Virus record (IMG/VR): IMGVR_UViG_3300009436_000123
Span: 1 to 22,328 of that record
DNA length: 22,328 nucleotides
Source of the DNA: a virus
Strand: one strand, 5' to 3'
Under the pieces are notes generated by a model. That model searched no databases and was not told the DNA's origin. It was given only the letters and a program-made list of their open reading frames with translations. Within the stretch, counting starts at the first letter, position 1. Every line of letters starts with the position of its first letter. Both the position numbers and the translations under genes were made by a program. Of the stretch, positions 10,117 to 17,509 are shown piece after piece.

Positions 10117-10373
10117 GGGTTCTGTTCCTTTTCTATTATGTCTATTAGGTTTTGCGGGTCATCACGACCCATTAGATTCACATAACTCATAGCCAAGTGT
10201 CGCTTACCTTCATTGAAGGCCGTCACCTGAGGATCGGAAGAAAATTTTGGAAAGGTCACACCGCAGTCCCTAAGGAGTCGCCGAAAAAATCGGTCTCCAG
10301 CTGGGGTGGCTGCGATAGATAACAAATCATCACGAAACTGCTGTCGGGCTCTGAGTTTTTTAAGTGGGTTCAT
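10113..10373 (-). CDS. Bbp19-like small phage protein
   Basis: An 86-residue basic protein with the pattern LLSIAATPAGDRFFRRLLRD, then CGVTFPKFSSDPQVTAFNEG and KRHLAMSYVNLM. I recognise this as the Bbp19-like family, named after a Bordetella phage BPP-1 gene and typically found between portal and scaffold or capsid genes. Its function is not established; its place suggests a part in head assembly. It starts 4 bases after the portal stop and overlaps the scaffold start by 4 bases (ATGA). Confidence 0.8.
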   Translation of the reverse strand: MNPLKKLRARQQFRDDLLSIAATPAGDRFFRRLLRDCGVTFPKFSSDPQVTAFNEGKRHLAMSYVNLMGRDDPQNLIDIIEKEQNP

Positions 10374-10376
10374 TCT

Positions 10377-12020
10377 TTACATATTCAATAACTGACCAAT
10401 GCCCTCGGGATCCGTAGATCGGGCAGAAGCAATATCCTTCATAGCACCAGCCATCTGAGGCATTGCTGCCGCTTGCTGCTGTTGTGATTCAGCCTCCTCG
10501 CGTTGTTCGCGAGCAGCTGTAACTTCGTCTTTACTTTTGACGACATTACGAGGGATGTTACGCATACGAGCGTAGTTATCGAAAAGGTTGTGTGTATCTA
10601 AGTTTTCCGCCATGGATGGATCCTGTTGGAGCAATGGTGTAATATCCTGAAGGAATCCAGACATATTACTAATTGCACCTGCATACTGTGCATGGGCTGC
10701 GGGACTTGTATAAACAATCTCCAACCCACGTCCTGCAAGCGACTCTGGAGCCGATTGCATTACAGGATGGTTCTTGTCTTGTAGGAAATCTATTACGTGC
10801 TCGATAGCTGGAGCAAGATACTCACTCTCTTGTCGAGCAAGGAGTGGTCCAAGCTGTTGTAGCATCTGACCACGCTCATCGTGGATCTCAGTTACCGACT
10901 GACGCTCTTTCTTCTGCTCACGAATAATCTGGTCAACGAAGAATGACTTCGTGATCTGACCTTGATAGTTCGAGATCATCTCCAAAGTAAGGTTCGGCTG
11001 ACTGCCACTAGTAAGCGGCTGAGGCATTGGTGACCCTGCTTCATGGAACAAGACCTGACCCGCGCCATATGTAATGGGCAACATGATCGAATCATCTTCA
11101 GCAACAAGCGGTGGGTTATTGGCGATCTCTGCACTACGCAGGATTTCCTTCACCATCTTGTTAAGAACACGGATCTGACTCATGCAAGTAGCCGCTGGTC
11201 CACGACCAAGGACTTCACCAGCAATAACCATCCAACGAGGAACGATAAACGGAAAGTAACCCTTCCCAGTTTGCAAAAGAACGGCATCCAACTCAGGTAC
11301 CCAATAAGATACCTTGTACGGACGCTGGTTGCCGATACGTCCCCCTTTACGGGCTGCTGGATCATTCGAAGGTTCGACCGAAAAGACCAGCTCGTATTTC
11401 TTGTTAGCTGCATACGGGTCGAATCCTTTAGTGTTGACCACATCAGGAAATTGTTGCGCGAGCGCCTTCGTGCTGAGGAACTTGCGGTAGAACATAGTGT
11501 CTACCGTACCTTCATCATTAACATCAAAGAAACTATCTGCTAGTGCGCAGGATTTAAAGTTAGGGATCGCTTTGTCTCTGTTCACATAAACAACAGCATT
11601 ACCGAAGGAACCAATATCATGGAACGCTTCATGGCTGGCTGCATAGAACTGACTAGCGGGTGTTGCGTAGATGTGACTGATTGTGTCACTGAGTCGCTCT
11701 AAAAAGATTAACTCATCATCCTTTAGTTCAGCCGAAGGCGTACCCTCAGGCTTTAAATAAGCCCAACGATCCGCCTTCGGAATCAAATAAGAACTAAGTC
11801 CGTTAGCGAACATTTGGTTCGCCCATACAGGTGTACTATCGTAGATAGGTTTGGATTGATCATCCTCCCGATTACTAGTCAGACCCATGGATCCCGTAAA
11901 ACGGGCTTTATTGGGAGCAACGTACTTCTGTGCATCAGAAAGCATCTCTTCGTGACCAGCACGGAGAAGCTTTAAATGTTCGTATCGCTCTTGGAGTCTA
12001 ACTAATTCAGGGGTCTTCAT
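10377..12020 (-). CDS. Portal (head-tail connector) protein
   Basis: A 547-residue protein of the podovirus head-tail connector family. Supporting segments are LRAGHEEMLSDAQKYVAPNK near the N-terminus, YDSTPVWANQMFANGLSSYL at ~90, FHDIGSFGNAVVYV at ~150, and the central long-helix part RVLNKMVKEILRSAEIANNP. A C-terminal Gln/Ala-rich helix (AAREQREEAESQQQQAAAM) is common in these proteins. Twelve copies would form the vertex ring through which DNA is packaged and ejected. Length is close to T7 gp8 (536). It starts immediately after the proline-tract gene's stop (TAA then ATG). Confidence 0.93.
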   Translation of the reverse strand: MKTPELVRLQERYEHLKLLRAGHEEMLSDAQKYVAPNKARFTGSMGLTSNREDDQSKPIYDSTPVWANQMFANGLSSYLIPKADRWAYLKPEGTPSAELKDDELIFLERLSDTISHIYATPASQFYAASHEAFHDIGSFGNAVVYVNRDKAIPNFKSCALADSFFDVNDEGTVDTMFYRKFLSTKALAQQFPDVVNTKGFDPYAANKKYELVFSVEPSNDPAARKGGRIGNQRPYKVSYWVPELDAVLLQTGKGYFPFIVPRWMVIAGEVLGRGPAATCMSQIRVLNKMVKEILRSAEIANNPPLVAEDDSIMLPITYGAGQVLFHEAGSPMPQPLTSGSQPNLTLEMISNYQGQITKSFFVDQIIREQKKERQSVTEIHDERGQMLQQLGPLLARQESEYLAPAIEHVIDFLQDKNHPVMQSAPESLAGRGLEIVYTSPAAHAQYAGAISNMSGFLQDITPLLQQDPSMAENLDTHNLFDNYARMRNIPRNVVKSKDEVTAAREQREEAESQQQQAAAMPQMAGAMKDIASARSTDPEGIGQLLNM

Positions 12021-12230
12021 TTACAATCCGCTACCTAGCGATTTCTTTTTTGTCGCATCACTACCAGAGAGTGCTGTCTTTTTAGTCGCACTACGCTGAA
12101 CCGCTGTTGGGTTCACGGCCTTGGCTGCTTTTTGGGCAGCCTGAATAGGCTTACGCGCAATTGGAGTAGGGGGCGGTGGAGGGGGCGGAGGCGGTGGAGG
12201 CGGTGGAGGCGTTTTTGGTTTTGATCCCAT
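12021..12230 (-). CDS. Small polyproline-tract basic protein
   Basis: A 69-residue protein starts MGSKPKT, runs into 14 prolines (residues 8-21), then a basic Ala/Lys tail (KPIQAAQKAAKAVNP, later SGSDATKKKSLGSG). Small Pro-run proteins of unknown function are often seen just before the portal gene in marine podoviruses, and this fits. The start AAAATATTATGGG matches the local start motif. Its first 80 bases overlap the end of the upstream gene in another frame, and the overlapping stretch is the proline tract itself. A run of 14 prolines would be expected to stall ribosomes unless EF-P assists. Confidence 0.75.
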   Translation of the reverse strand: MGSKPKTPPPPPPPPPPPPPPTPIARKPIQAAQKAAKAVNPTAVQRSATKKTALSGSDATKKKSLGSGL

Positions 12231-12576
12231 AATATTTTCTTAGTTTGTAAGTAGAAAGAAACCGAAGTTCGGTGTCCAAGTATTTTAAGTATCTATGAAA
12301 ACCAATCCTGTCAAGAGAGTAAGGCATCAGTTTACAAAAGGTTAACATATTTGATCCTGACGTATAATCTATGTGCCAATAGTCCCCTTTAGCATCCGTC
12401 GCTTTTCGAAACAAGAAGATAGCTGTGGGGCCTATGTACGTGTGGTACTCATCCTCGGGTAACCGATACAGATAGGAATCCAGAAGATCCCCAAAGTTCT
12501 CGCCGCGAAGTCGGTATAACTTATGGGCATCTTCCAACAAAGATGTACGAACGGGGGCTGTGCTAGTTATGGACAT
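12151..12576 (-). CDS. Conserved small protein between terminase and portal; possibly GNAT-like
   Basis: A 141-residue protein with a well-structured core: LLDSYLYRLPEDEYHTYIG, then AIFLFRKATDAKGDYWHIDY and MPYSLDRIGFHRYLKYLDTE, LRFLSTYKLRKYYG. Alternating strands followed by helices, plus the LRFL-type motif near the end, recall GNAT-like small podovirus proteins such as T7 gp13. The likeness is weak and no acetyl-CoA motif is visible. The start overlaps the large-terminase stop by one base (TAATG). The last ~23 residues are a low-complexity Ala/Ser/Thr tail produced by reading the next gene's proline codons in another frame, so that tail may be a secondary extension. Confidence 0.75.
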   Translation of the reverse strand: MSITSTAPVRTSLLEDAHKLYRLRGENFGDLLDSYLYRLPEDEYHTYIGPTAIFLFRKATDAKGDYWHIDYTSGSNMLTFCKLMPYSLDRIGFHRYLKYLDTELRFLSTYKLRKYYGIKTKNASTASTASAPSTAPYSNCA

Positions 12577-13901
12577 TAAAAATCAACCTCTCTTATCTTA
12601 TACGTGTTCCGATCCTTCCGAGTTCGGGCATTACGGTCATATTCACGGTTCGCCTTGAGCCCAACAGCCAATGTCGAGAAAGCATCGGCACCATGGGACG
12701 CATTATTGTGGATAGCCTGTTTCTTGAACACTTGCTTAGACTCGTCCCACTCTTTGGCGTAGTTCTTCAAATGCTCGATACCCAAGGAACAATTAGTCGT
12801 ATCAAACCAGCATTTCGGTAGTGTCTGACGTACCGCCTCGATCTGGTCGCTCTTACCCATCCGTTTAACAACAGTTGGCTTGATACCTAGAGATCTGAGA
12901 GTTTCGATACGAGATTTCCCTGTTCCAAGCTCCCTAACCGCCACATCATGAGGTAAGTAGTGCTTTCCATACGTAAAATCATGTAAGGACGACAATCTTT
13001 GCAGTTCCTTAGCATAAAACGGTAATCCCTCACCAGAGTTCTCATAGTAAAAGATAGGACGCAGCTCATTTCGGTATTGTTGGGCAAACCAGATGCTCGT
13101 GCTGTCATCCATACCCAAATCCCACCCAGTAATCACTGGCAACGCTGGATCGGGGCTGATCTTGTCCAACATCTGCCCCTTGTGGTACAATTTAGTCAAT
13201 ATGTCCCCATAATAGGAACCCTCGACTGGTGTATCAAAGCTAGACATGAACTCCTGCTGGAACAATGCCTCACTCATCTCATCTCGCGCCTTACGCAGAT
13301 CAGCTGGCTTAATAGCCTTAGTTTTAGTCACAGGTAAGTGACTAACAAACCAATCAGGGTCTGCTTCAGCCTTCTTCAACAACTTGTACATGTGGTTCTT
13401 ACCACGAGGCGTACTATTGAATATAGCCCAACCACCATTCTCCGCTAACACAGGATTCAAGAAGTGCCAAATACTGGGGTCGCACAAAGCATACTCCGAA
13501 AATATAATACCAATAGGGTTCGTACCAACCACTCGGTCAGGGTTATCCGCACCAACCAACTGAATCACGGAACCATTGGTCAGCGTCAGAGACATTTCCT
13601 GCTCAGACTTACGGACAACCAACTCGCGGGGCACGAAGTCAATGAACTTACGCCCCTCACCATCCTGACCCTGCCACAGAATCTTACGCAACTGATTCTG
13701 GAACGGACCTACATAAAGATACAGCCCCTTCCGCTGGAGCGCCTTAATCGCCATTACATTGATACAAGTCAAATCCTTACCCGCACGTCGATGCCATACA
13801 AGCACTGCTCGTAAGCTTTTCGCACTGGGTGCCATATACTTAAGCAAAGGTAACTGATAATGTCTAGGGATATATCCCTGCGCAGGTAATTGTACACTCA
13901 T
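12576..13901 (-). CDS. terL: Terminase large subunit
   Basis: A 441-residue packaging motor with ATPase and nuclease domains. Walker A is WHRRAGKD (residues 36-43), a known deviant form. Walker B is GIIFSEYA (131-138) with catalytic Glu136. The coupling motif is STPRGKNH (163-170). The RNase H-like nuclease shows Asp261 in GWDLG, Asp319 in LPHDVAVRE and Asp406 in HGADAF, the usual acidic triad. It cuts concatemers and pumps DNA through the portal. The length is normal to slightly short for podovirus TerL. It follows the small terminase after 19 bases, and its stop overlaps the next ATG by one base. Confidence 0.96.
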   Translation of the reverse strand: MSVQLPAQGYIPRHYQLPLLKYMAPSAKSLRAVLVWHRRAGKDLTCINVMAIKALQRKGLYLYVGPFQNQLRKILWQGQDGEGRKFIDFVPRELVVRKSEQEMSLTLTNGSVIQLVGADNPDRVVGTNPIGIIFSEYALCDPSIWHFLNPVLAENGGWAIFNSTPRGKNHMYKLLKKAEADPDWFVSHLPVTKTKAIKPADLRKARDEMSEALFQQEFMSSFDTPVEGSYYGDILTKLYHKGQMLDKISPDPALPVITGWDLGMDDSTSIWFAQQYRNELRPIFYYENSGEGLPFYAKELQRLSSLHDFTYGKHYLPHDVAVRELGTGKSRIETLRSLGIKPTVVKRMGKSDQIEAVRQTLPKCWFDTTNCSLGIEHLKNYAKEWDESKQVFKKQAIHNNASHGADAFSTLAVGLKANREYDRNARTRKDRNTYKIREVDF

Positions 13902-13920: not shown

Positions 13921-14535
13921 TTAAATGGATCCGTCGTTCTCTGTTACATTGGCCGTGGCCTCTGGTGGCGTAAACTCACCGTAGTCGTATACCTCATCTT
14001 CATCTTCTTCCACATCAAACACGTCTACGTCATCAGCCGCCATAGCTGCGGCAACCAAATCCTTCTGGGTAGTCTGGGCGAAATCAACAACGTTAATAGT
14101 CATATTACTCTGCACATCAGCCTGAAGGTCAATTGTTTTCGGCTTAGCTGCAAAGAACCCACTCAACTCCTTAGTCACAGCGATTCTATCCTTAACGGGC
14201 AATACATACTCCCCATCTGCATCCTTCTCCGTCACAAACTCAATTAGTGCCCCTAGTGGATTGAATCCTGCATCCTCGAACATAGCCAAGACCATCTTAC
14301 GCTGCTGGGATGGAGTCGGGGCTTCAGACATCATCTCCAACAACTGCTGCTTTACCAACAACTTCTTCTCGGTAGACGCAGTCTCTCGTTGAATCTCCAT
14401 AAGCTTCTGGGAAGCTTTAGGCAAACGTTTCGTATCTCTCACACGCTTCCGCTCTTTTTGCTTGGTTACTTGCTTGGGTCGAACGCCGTTGGAGGTTTTC
14501 CTCTTATCTGCGAATGGGTCTCGTTTGATGGGCAT
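13921..14535 (-). CDS. Terminase small subunit (probable)
   Basis: A 204-residue protein is first in the structural block, directly before the large terminase. It has a basic N-terminus (KQKERKRVRDTKRLPKASQ), a helical middle with DAGFNPLGALIEFV and VKDRIAVTKELSGFFAAKPK, and a very acidic C-terminus (VDVFDVEEDEDEVYDYG). The middle segment resembles small terminase-type proteins I recall from aquatic podoviruses; such proteins recognise genome ends or concatemer junctions and recruit TerL. No classic helix-turn-helix is obvious, so the call rests mainly on position and overall pattern. Just upstream on the minus strand lies TTGACT with a TAGAAA hexamer 16 bases further on, a possible promoter very close to the ATG. 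Confidence 0.75.
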   Translation of the reverse strand: MPIKRDPFADKRKTSNGVRPKQVTKQKERKRVRDTKRLPKASQKLMEIQRETASTEKKLLVKQQLLEMMSEAPTPSQQRKMVLAMFEDAGFNPLGALIEFVTEKDADGEYVLPVKDRIAVTKELSGFFAAKPKTIDLQADVQSNMTINVVDFAQTTQKDLVAAAMAADDVDVFDVEEDEDEVYDYGEFTPPEATANVTENDGSI

Positions 14536-14547
14536 GGTTCTTTTCTA

Positions 14548-14573
14548 GGGTTCATGGGCTCTTAGTCAAGAAA
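14548..14573 (-). promoter_or_regulatory. Possible promoter of the late (structural) block
   Basis: On the minus strand TTGACT is followed after 16 bases by TAGAAA. The -10 element would be only about 7 bases from the small-terminase ATG, implying an almost leaderless transcript. It is a fair but not perfect sigma70-like match and is the best candidate between the inverted-repeat region and the first late gene. Confidence 0.25.
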
Positions 14574-14618: not shown

Positions 14619-14849
14619 CTACCAAATCTACCAGAGCTTTTTGGAATCTTGGTAGAACATTAAACAATAACATCTATCAACGACTTACAGAATATTTACC
14701 GATTTACCCTACCAAGCGACTAACTTTACCATAGTAGTTTCTTAAATGAAAATGTCTGGTAAATTGGTAGATATTACATAAGTCGTTGATAACCCTATAT
14801 CTCCACTTGTTCTACCAGAGGGGTGGTAAATGGCGAAATTTGTTGGTAG
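14619..14849. repeat. CTACCA-box cluster within a large inverted repeat (origin or control region)
   Basis: Seven exact CTACCA/TGGTAG hexamers lie at 14619, 14628, 14650, 14709, 14765, 14812 and 14844, with several degenerate TTACC/GGTAA copies between them. They form an imperfect inverted repeat centred near 14733. Its perfect 13-bp core is at 14675-14687 and 14779-14791. Matching outer boxes (14650-14659 with 14808-14817) and inner segments (14691-14708 with 14758-14775) are equally spaced from the centre. The AT-rich interior lies exactly between the divergent minus- and plus-strand gene blocks. Iteron-like boxes in an inverted repeat at a divergence point fit a replication origin, a binding array for a regulator of both blocks, or both. 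Which of these it is cannot be told from sequence. Confidence 0.75.
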
Positions 14850-14934: not shown

Positions 14935-15390
14935 GATGGGTCCCCCTACTCCCTTCGGACTCCAAAGTTCCCCATGCCCCCCCCTTCGCCCAGATTCCTT
15001 GTTCCAATGGCTCCGTGTTCCCGTTGCCCCAAGGCTCCGTGTTCCCATGGTTCCGTGCTCCCATGTATATATATACCCTGCACCCCAGCACCCCTGTTAC
15101 CATGCACCCATGCACCATGCTACCCTGTTACCATGCACCGTGGATGCGTGGGTTATATCCCACCGTCACCATGACACCATGACCCACACCCATCCGTGTC
15201 GCTCCACCACTGGGCTCACAGCCACCCTGACCCCTGTCATCCATCAACCCACATCACCCATCAGCCTACCCACGCCCCACCAAGGCTCTCTGCTGCCCTT
15301 CAAGCCCCTCTACCATCGTAACCATGGTAACACCCATCCAATGCACCCAAAGCAACCCTTGGCACAACAAGGGCTCTGGACATAGTTACC
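14935..15390 (+). repeat. C-rich, G-poor low-complexity stretch with short direct repeats
   Basis: This stretch has no supported gene. It is dominated by CCC, CCATG and CACC words. Three copies of GGYTCCGTGYTCCC lie at 15009, 15033 and 15049. An exact 17-bp direct repeat (CCCTGTTACCATGCACC) lies at 15092-15108 and 15123-15139. CACCATGA is repeated at 15167 and 15176. Short open frames cross it on both strands, but their products are low-complexity and have no good start signal. It resembles minisatellite-type DNA grown by slippage, or a weakly structured C-rich RNA leader. Confidence 0.7.
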
Positions 15391-16672: not shown

Positions 16673-17509
16673 ATGATTCCAAAACAATCTAAAACATCTC
16701 GCGCAGCTCACCAAAAAGCACTGGAAATCCCCAAGTCTTACGACTTGGACGATCCACTGGAGCAGGCACGACGTGACCTCTGGTCTATCGTGTATAGCGA
16801 AGCCAATGACGTCGCCGATTCTATCCGCAACCGTCACCTAGACGCTCAAGACGTGGTTGATCACTGGTATCTCGACCTAGAGAACAACGCACAGGTATCG
16901 CACGACTTCAAAGCCCACGACAAGGTCACGGGCTTCCAAACCATCTCGCAGGAGCTCAAAGCATTCGAGGAAAATGAAAATCAACTCGCCTACCAGCTCT
17001 GGGAACGTGAGTTCCGTAAGTGGTGGGACGGTGGCAAACAAGGCAAAAAGCCTGTGCTTCCTGCTAGGTCAACCTACCGCGTCTGCCAATTCAAGGATGT
17101 CGAAACCTTCGGCAACGCAGCTTGGTCAGAAGTAGAAGACGAAGTGGAATCCCTCGAACGTCTACGTGAACGTCGCAGCAGCATCCGTCAGGACGCTATG
17201 GACGATCCAGAAAACGCCTACGAGGACGAGCGTGGCAATCGCCGCTTAGCTCAATCCCGCTGTCTCTTCGACCGCTACGATCCACAGAACCCTAAGTTCA
17301 AGTTTCGTGGTCAAAAGGGTGTGCTCGGTGGCATTTATACAACCACAGACCCTGAGCCTACTTACCGTTCAGCCAAAAACCGTGGCTTGCTTGTCAAAGC
17401 TCTCCTTCGTTCCGACAACGTTCTCGATATCCTGCTCGCCAAGGGTATGAATCGTAAGTTCAGCTTCCCTGCAAAAAAGAGGGCTAAAGCGAACGCCAGT
17501 AAAATCTAA
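16673..17509 (+). CDS. Unknown charged protein, 278 residues
   Basis: A hydrophilic protein rich in Arg, Asp, Glu and Trp, with no membrane segment and no motif I can assign. Helical stretches include LEQARRDLWSIVYSEANDVA and a clearly charged helix EDEVESLERLRERRSSIRQD (around 158-177). A repeat of aromatic/basic residues (YQLWEREFRKWWDGG) sits near 112-125. The C-terminus is strongly basic (MNRKFSFPAKKRAKANASK), which suggests nucleic-acid binding but does not prove it. The start follows CTTTATT and lacks a Shine-Dalgarno sequence. A strong terminator begins 7 bases after the stop, so this gene and the previous one probably form one early transcript. Confidence 0.85.
   Translation: MIPKQSKTSRAAHQKALEIPKSYDLDDPLEQARRDLWSIVYSEANDVADSIRNRHLDAQDVVDHWYLDLENNAQVSHDFKAHDKVTGFQTISQELKAFEENENQLAYQLWEREFRKWWDGGKQGKKPVLPARSTYRVCQFKDVETFGNAAWSEVEDEVESLERLRERRSSIRQDAMDDPENAYEDERGNRRLAQSRCLFDRYDPQNPKFKFRGQKGVLGGIYTTTDPEPTYRSAKNRGLLVKALLRSDNVLDILLAKGMNRKFSFPAKKRAKANASKI

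Follow-up and report, generated by a model that had tools for sequence, protein, structure and literature searches.

The window, a 22,328-nucleotide stretch of viral DNA (IMG/VR record IMGVR_UViG_3300009436_000123), carries a leftward pair of terminase genes, encoding a large terminase (TerL, 441 aa, 12576-13901, minus strand) and a 204-aa protein in the small-terminase position (TerS, 13921-14535, minus strand), and early genes that run rightward from 15925. Between the two, next to TerS, lies a candidate replication origin (14619-14849, without strand) made of a mirror-symmetric array of short boxes and two inverted IHF-type sites. The seven CTACCA/TGGTAG hexamers counted here by an earlier note on this DNA are all exact: CTACCA is read on the plus strand at 14619-14624, 14628-14633, 14709-14714 and 14812-14817 and on the minus strand at 14650-14655, 14765-14770 and 14844-14849. 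Three one-base variants (TTACCA) lie within the same array, one in its central part (14726-14731, plus strand) and two on the minus strand (14757-14762 and 14824-14829). The inverted arms (14675-14708 and 14758-14791, 34 nt each, 85% complementary) share a perfect 13-bp core, TATCAACGACTTA, at 14675-14687 (plus strand; the right arm in the TerS orientation) and 14779-14791 (minus strand; the left arm in the TerS orientation). In its account of the arms and core, and of their position between leftward late and rightward early genes, the earlier note was correct. It had also judged the arrangement too regular for chance, which the window alone bears out only in part. The box array in the window sequence by itself is only moderately beyond chance: the densest 6-mer cluster per 231 bp holds seven copies at the element and four elsewhere in the window, and 60 first-order Markov simulations of 22 kb reached a maximum of six. 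The array is nevertheless certain, because each phage compared holds 6-13 copies of its own word at fixed, mirror-symmetric positions.

Several other sequences flank the element. Immediately 5' of TerS, TTGACT-16-TAGAAA (14542-14569, minus strand; TTGACA is found there in relatives) is likely a sigma-70-like promoter for TerS that leaves a very short leader, uncalled by a consensus scan. On the early side, a conserved run GGGGGGGG-CAT-GGGG(G) (14970-14988, minus strand) precedes a T-rich stretch that is likewise conserved (ATCCAATTTTCAATTTTTGAG in many relatives); the run is also present upstream of the element in many relatives, many contigs end nearby, and it is a possible G-quadruplex or unwinding element. 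Degenerate tandem CCATGG/CCGTGTTCCC repeats, GC-rich and apparently non-coding, occupy 15000-15200, between the element and the first early genes. A 178-aa ORF beside the element of a relative (G003), only 52% identical between close relatives, was discarded as probably no gene; it lies in a GC-rich repeat region.

Searches with TerL and with the arm word returned 33 distinct elements, hereafter class A, all of them (33/33) directly 5' of a TerS-TerL pair of this clade. Each class A element combines two IHF-type sites in inverted orientation with as many as 12 mirror-symmetric box slots. Outside the arm there are forward boxes at -64, -55 and -44 and a reverse box at -23, and inside it forward boxes at +3 and +12; the opposite half repeats this pattern in mirror image, and the layout does not depend on the word. 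The spacings of 9, 11 and 9 bp fall within the helical spacing of iterons (9-11 bp). On average 9.3 of the 12 slots are filled by the phage's own word, against 0.68 by the words of other phages, and five elements fill 12/12. The own word occurs in 5-13 copies per phage within ~300 bp, as a single full cluster per contig with one exception among the contigs checked; the window and G003 hold an additional three-copy cluster elsewhere. The conserved box spacing that the earlier note had proposed to seek in related phages is thus found in 33 elements, though the word itself differs.

About 15 box words are in use among class A phages: CTACCA (the window and G018), TTACCA (G001), TCCCA (G015), and also AGTACAC, GGTACAC, ATCACAC, TTCACAC, CTCACAC, TAGACAC, CAGACAC, TTGACAC, GTGACAC, CTGACAC, TAGTCAC and GCTACA. 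The word switches in all slots jointly while spacers and arms are retained, as in the close pair G003/L018 (TerL ~90%, TerS 88%), in which the spacers align and the word is replaced throughout. These fixed slots, 12 in number, the rewriting of the word between relatives and the IHF-type character of the arms had all escaped the earlier note. The arm-to-arm region is AT-rich (67%, vs 48-62% in the genomes). The TerS start is 47-204 bp from the element, and the AEP primase and UvrD genes are ~10 kb away. A relative whose TerL is 90% identical to that of the window (G001) has the full element twice; the second copy, at 38.15-38.40 kb, is flanked by a UvrD-type and an SNF2-type helicase gene that run in the same direction. 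No box array was found upstream of TerS/TerL in the distant named relatives HTVC010P, HTVC024P and ZP6, and Venkman (L213, 3299-3342) has only short direct repeats (TCTAGAGGT, 11-bp spacing) upstream of its terminase region. A TerL search of cellular genomes gave no relative, and a literature search by arm word no description of the element. A different phage (G025; L199, 7845-17956) holds ~10 dispersed intergenic copies of palindromic GTAAGTCSTTGAT/TATCAAGGACTTAC, nested in GGGGCCCC and TTGGCAC repeats and resembling a repeated element.

The core TATCAACGACTTA of both window arms fits the IHF consensus WATCARNNNNTTR (PMC8421141) exactly. Such matches are not rare by themselves, four being found across the window against 2.3 expected, and the weight therefore lies in their conservation: the left arm matches the consensus in 33/33 class A elements and the right arm in 11/33. 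Outside class A, the arm word recurs in unrelated phages (class B), as three direct repeats near another terminase type, and in an IncW region that we take to be oriT; cellular genomes have hardly any copies of it. The idea that the arms are simply a frequent host-chromosome word is thereby discarded, the 18-mer being present in 97 viral-contig stretches vs only three in 257 Gb of cellular genomes. The arm word would be common to unrelated phages because a host protein such as IHF reads it, and from the sequence match we infer that IHF binds the arms. Phage RNA-polymerase or sigma-70 promoters were also considered, but the spacing misfits -35/-10 and the TATA-like outer flanks make better sense as the AT-rich half of IHF sites; DnaA boxes were set aside on two mismatches in nine and variable flanks. 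The class B phages (L015, L057, L022, L049 and others) form a podovirus clade with the IHF-type word three times, at 21-22 bp spacing, upstream of their own TerS, and share with class A only this word and a few small genes. A small acidic protein (~85 aa) is encoded beside the terminase genes in G002 (L150, 38758-39015) and in class B loci, with 40-67% identity between the classes.

Which protein reads the box word? The primase gene of this phage lies beyond the end of the window, and the pairing of word and primase was compared in relatives. All five near-complete class A genomes share these non-structural gene families: PolA, an AEP-TOTE primase, UvrD, SNF2 and the Pam3-like proteins gp33 and gp34. 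Words were classed by their base -2 (G vs C/T), and alignment columns were tested over 14 genomes, against 3003 partitions. The two classes are separated by 30 of 268 variable columns in the AEP primase, 28 of 371 in UvrD and 8 of 134 in gp34, and for each of these three proteins the partition by word class is the best of all 3003. Word class is followed hardly or not at all by gp33 (4/117), SNF2 (3/255), TerL (1/157) and TerS (0/114 columns). TerS was rejected as the reader on this count and on its basic N-terminal part, which is nearly identical across many words. A recombinant phage (G039) compares with G003, whose word is TAGACAC, at 93% in TerL and 88% in TerS, and at 70% in AEP and 55% in UvrD; its own word, CTCACAC, resembles the ATCACAC of its closer AEP relatives (the G005 group). 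Judged by these identities, the word of the recombinant went with the primase and not with the terminase.

Within the primase, eight separating columns fall in residues 461-485 (P=2e-4). An AlphaFold model (mean pLDDT 83) predicts the C-terminus (404-496) to be a winged helix, and the eight columns map to helix 3, the wing and the adjacent strands of this predicted fold; words with G accompany the primase signature KRTLK.DT.R. In structural comparisons the C-terminal domain shows similarity to oriT-bound TcpK (Z 8.1) and, at scores that count as weak (Z <8), to the C-terminus of Cch, the SCCmec helicase (Z 6.6), and to SaPIbov1 Rep (Z 6.3, with a poor rmsd); the N-terminus is a CAPP-like PrimPol (Z 20.8). 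G and C/T words divide the phages along the deepest branching of the AEP tree. The association therefore amounts, for the most part, to a single phylogenetic contrast and one recombinant, and a partial Mantel test of AEP given TerL is weak (r=0.23, p=0.037; for TerS, p=0.006). UvrD or gp34 could be the reader instead of the primase. The earlier note had named the product of 16673-17509 (p278) as a protein to try on the boxes, but it is unlikely as a general reader: G001 has two elements and no homologue. A PRTRC/ParB-type reader was likewise rejected, the candidates amounting to a ThiF protein and a weak PRTRC_A match that are absent from G001. The cassette in question, with a ThiF-like E1 protein beside the weak PRTRC_A match (G005, 10129-13295, L177), is found in several class A phages.

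A second, temperate family (class C) has an array of a similar kind, in which one IHF-type site is usually clear. Its words also differ between relatives (GCGCAC, GTGCCA/GGCACA, GTAGCA and GTGTCA). The AEP primase was not found in class C, where the primase-helicase is DUF5906/VapE-like; a recognition-helix-like segment at its C-terminus hardly differs between two genomes that share a word and is altered in a third genome with a different word (n=3). One class C phage (G030) encodes an integrase and an HTH_3 protein, and a palindrome, TGTGCCAGCGGCACA, with further box words lies at the start of its integrase gene (44419-44436, L233).

Taken together, the data incline us, if by a modest degree, towards an iteron-type replication origin, bent by IHF and read by the C-terminal domain of the primase. 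Two host IHF dimers would bend the DNA at the inverted arms, and each bend would gather up to six phage-specific boxes of 6-7 bp, four outside the arm and two inside, giving two mirror-image sets and 12 boxes in total. The boxes would be read by the C-terminal winged-helix domain of the phage AEP-type primase, probably helped by the adjacent UvrD-type helicase; the two proteins may then open the AT-rich centre, where the phage PolA would begin synthesis. The scaffold of arms, spacing and slot orientation would be kept while the word is rewritten in step with the recognition helix and wing of the primase. The origin proposed by the earlier note is supported by inference, from a box class that tracks the primase-helicase genes and an iteron-like layout with IHF-type sites. 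It is further supported by the second full copy in G001 because this copy sits between UvrD and SNF2 helicase genes. The GC-skew check that the note had suggested did not favour it: cumulative skew runs monotonically through both the window and G001 and does not turn at the element; such a turn is expected of a bidirectional origin and is not required of phage origins.

The earlier note had also seen in the element a control point of the two transcripts. As a transcription switch, the boxes would be operators of a phage regulator that, together with IHF-bent DNA, governs the divergent early and late transcripts, and word changes would be immunity-type divergence. The position at the late/early divergence in both class A and class C fits this scheme, as do the integrase, the HTH_3 protein and the looser second box cluster at the integrase start in G030, and the second G001 copy could serve the SNF2 gene. 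That copy, however, lies between two co-directional genes; the boxes are fixed relative to the IHF-type sites and not to the TerS start, whose distance varies over 47-204 bp; a consensus scan gave no promoter-like site at the element; and the word tracks the primase-helicase genes. Moreover, no HTH regulator was seen among the class A proteins scanned, and no regulator-like family is common to G001 and the other near-complete class A genomes. The control-point claim therefore fares poorly, and we regard a transcription switch as unlikely, though still deserving of attention.

A packaging start site (pac or cosB-like), read by TerS with IHF, would account for the location of the element beside TerS in all class A loci and for the resemblance of boxes flanking IHF-type sites to lambda cosB. 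Yet no TerS column separates the words and its basic N-terminal part barely changes with them, the recombinant retains a G003-like TerS while carrying another word, G001 has two full copies, and near-full-length contigs span the element and end at differing places; on balance this explanation is improbable. Least probable, and by our reckoning very doubtful, is a centromere-like or recombination site (parS or att-like) working with IHF. The occurrence of the IHF-type word in the presumed oriT region of IncW could be cited for it, but no ParA/ParB or integrase was seen among the class A proteins scanned, and the ThiF/PRTRC_A-like genes come without ParB and are missing from G001. Also in its favour is a precedent, the P1 parS site, in which box motifs surround an IHF site (PMC5016525).

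Returning to the iteron-type origin, it is conceivable, although we hold this tentatively, that a fixed 12-slot, IHF-bent origin whose word was rewritten repeatedly in at least two families, together with the winged-helix head of the primase or primase-helicase, constitutes a replication self/non-self code, driven perhaps by competing phages or by satellites stealing replication. Replication specificity would then be a line of conflict between related phages. If true, the model would also provide origins for abundant uncultured phages, for which we found none described, and a natural series of ~20 matched word/reader pairs from which to learn how a winged helix picks its DNA word. Differing words in the same slots are a natural experiment in the joint change of a DNA-reading protein and its sites, and the series makes it testable how 10-12 sites can change in concert and still function.

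The element has partial counterparts among known systems. Lambda-type O protein/ori pairs and R6K gamma-type origins combine type-specific iterons with a type-specific initiator domain, and R6K has an IHF site beside its iterons; unlike in these systems, no O- or pi-like initiator was found here, and the boxes are shorter and mirror-symmetric about a centre. In lambda cosB, R sites flank an IHF site and the R-site/TerS specificity differs between lambda and 21 (PMC4669245). Like cosB and P1 pac, the element has short, repeated, type-specific sites, here putative protein sites, around an IHF-type site and beside the small-terminase gene, but its word does not go with TerS, one genome has two full copies, and the symmetry of the element gives it no direction. 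P1 parS is similar in its hexamer/heptamer boxes around an IHF bend and in its box-specific recognition, which is presumed here as well, and differs in that no ParB was seen among the class A proteins scanned and that a 12-slot dyad stands here against one asymmetric site in P1. In the SaPI and SCCmec replicons, short iterons are reported to be read by the C-terminal domains of Rep and Cch2, Rep apparently acting as two hexamers (PMC7581432); by analogy, the 12 mirrored slots might accommodate two groups of six. These replicons share with the present element short repeated boxes (near the replication genes in their case), which here too would be read by the C-terminal domain of a replication protein, and the fold of the AEP C-terminus is similar to that of Cch, if weakly. 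Unlike in these islands, the box site of these free-living phages is distant from the primase gene; it is placed where late and early genes diverge and has strict dyad slots and two IHF-type sites in inverted orientation, and its suspected reader is an AEP primase rather than a fused initiator helicase.
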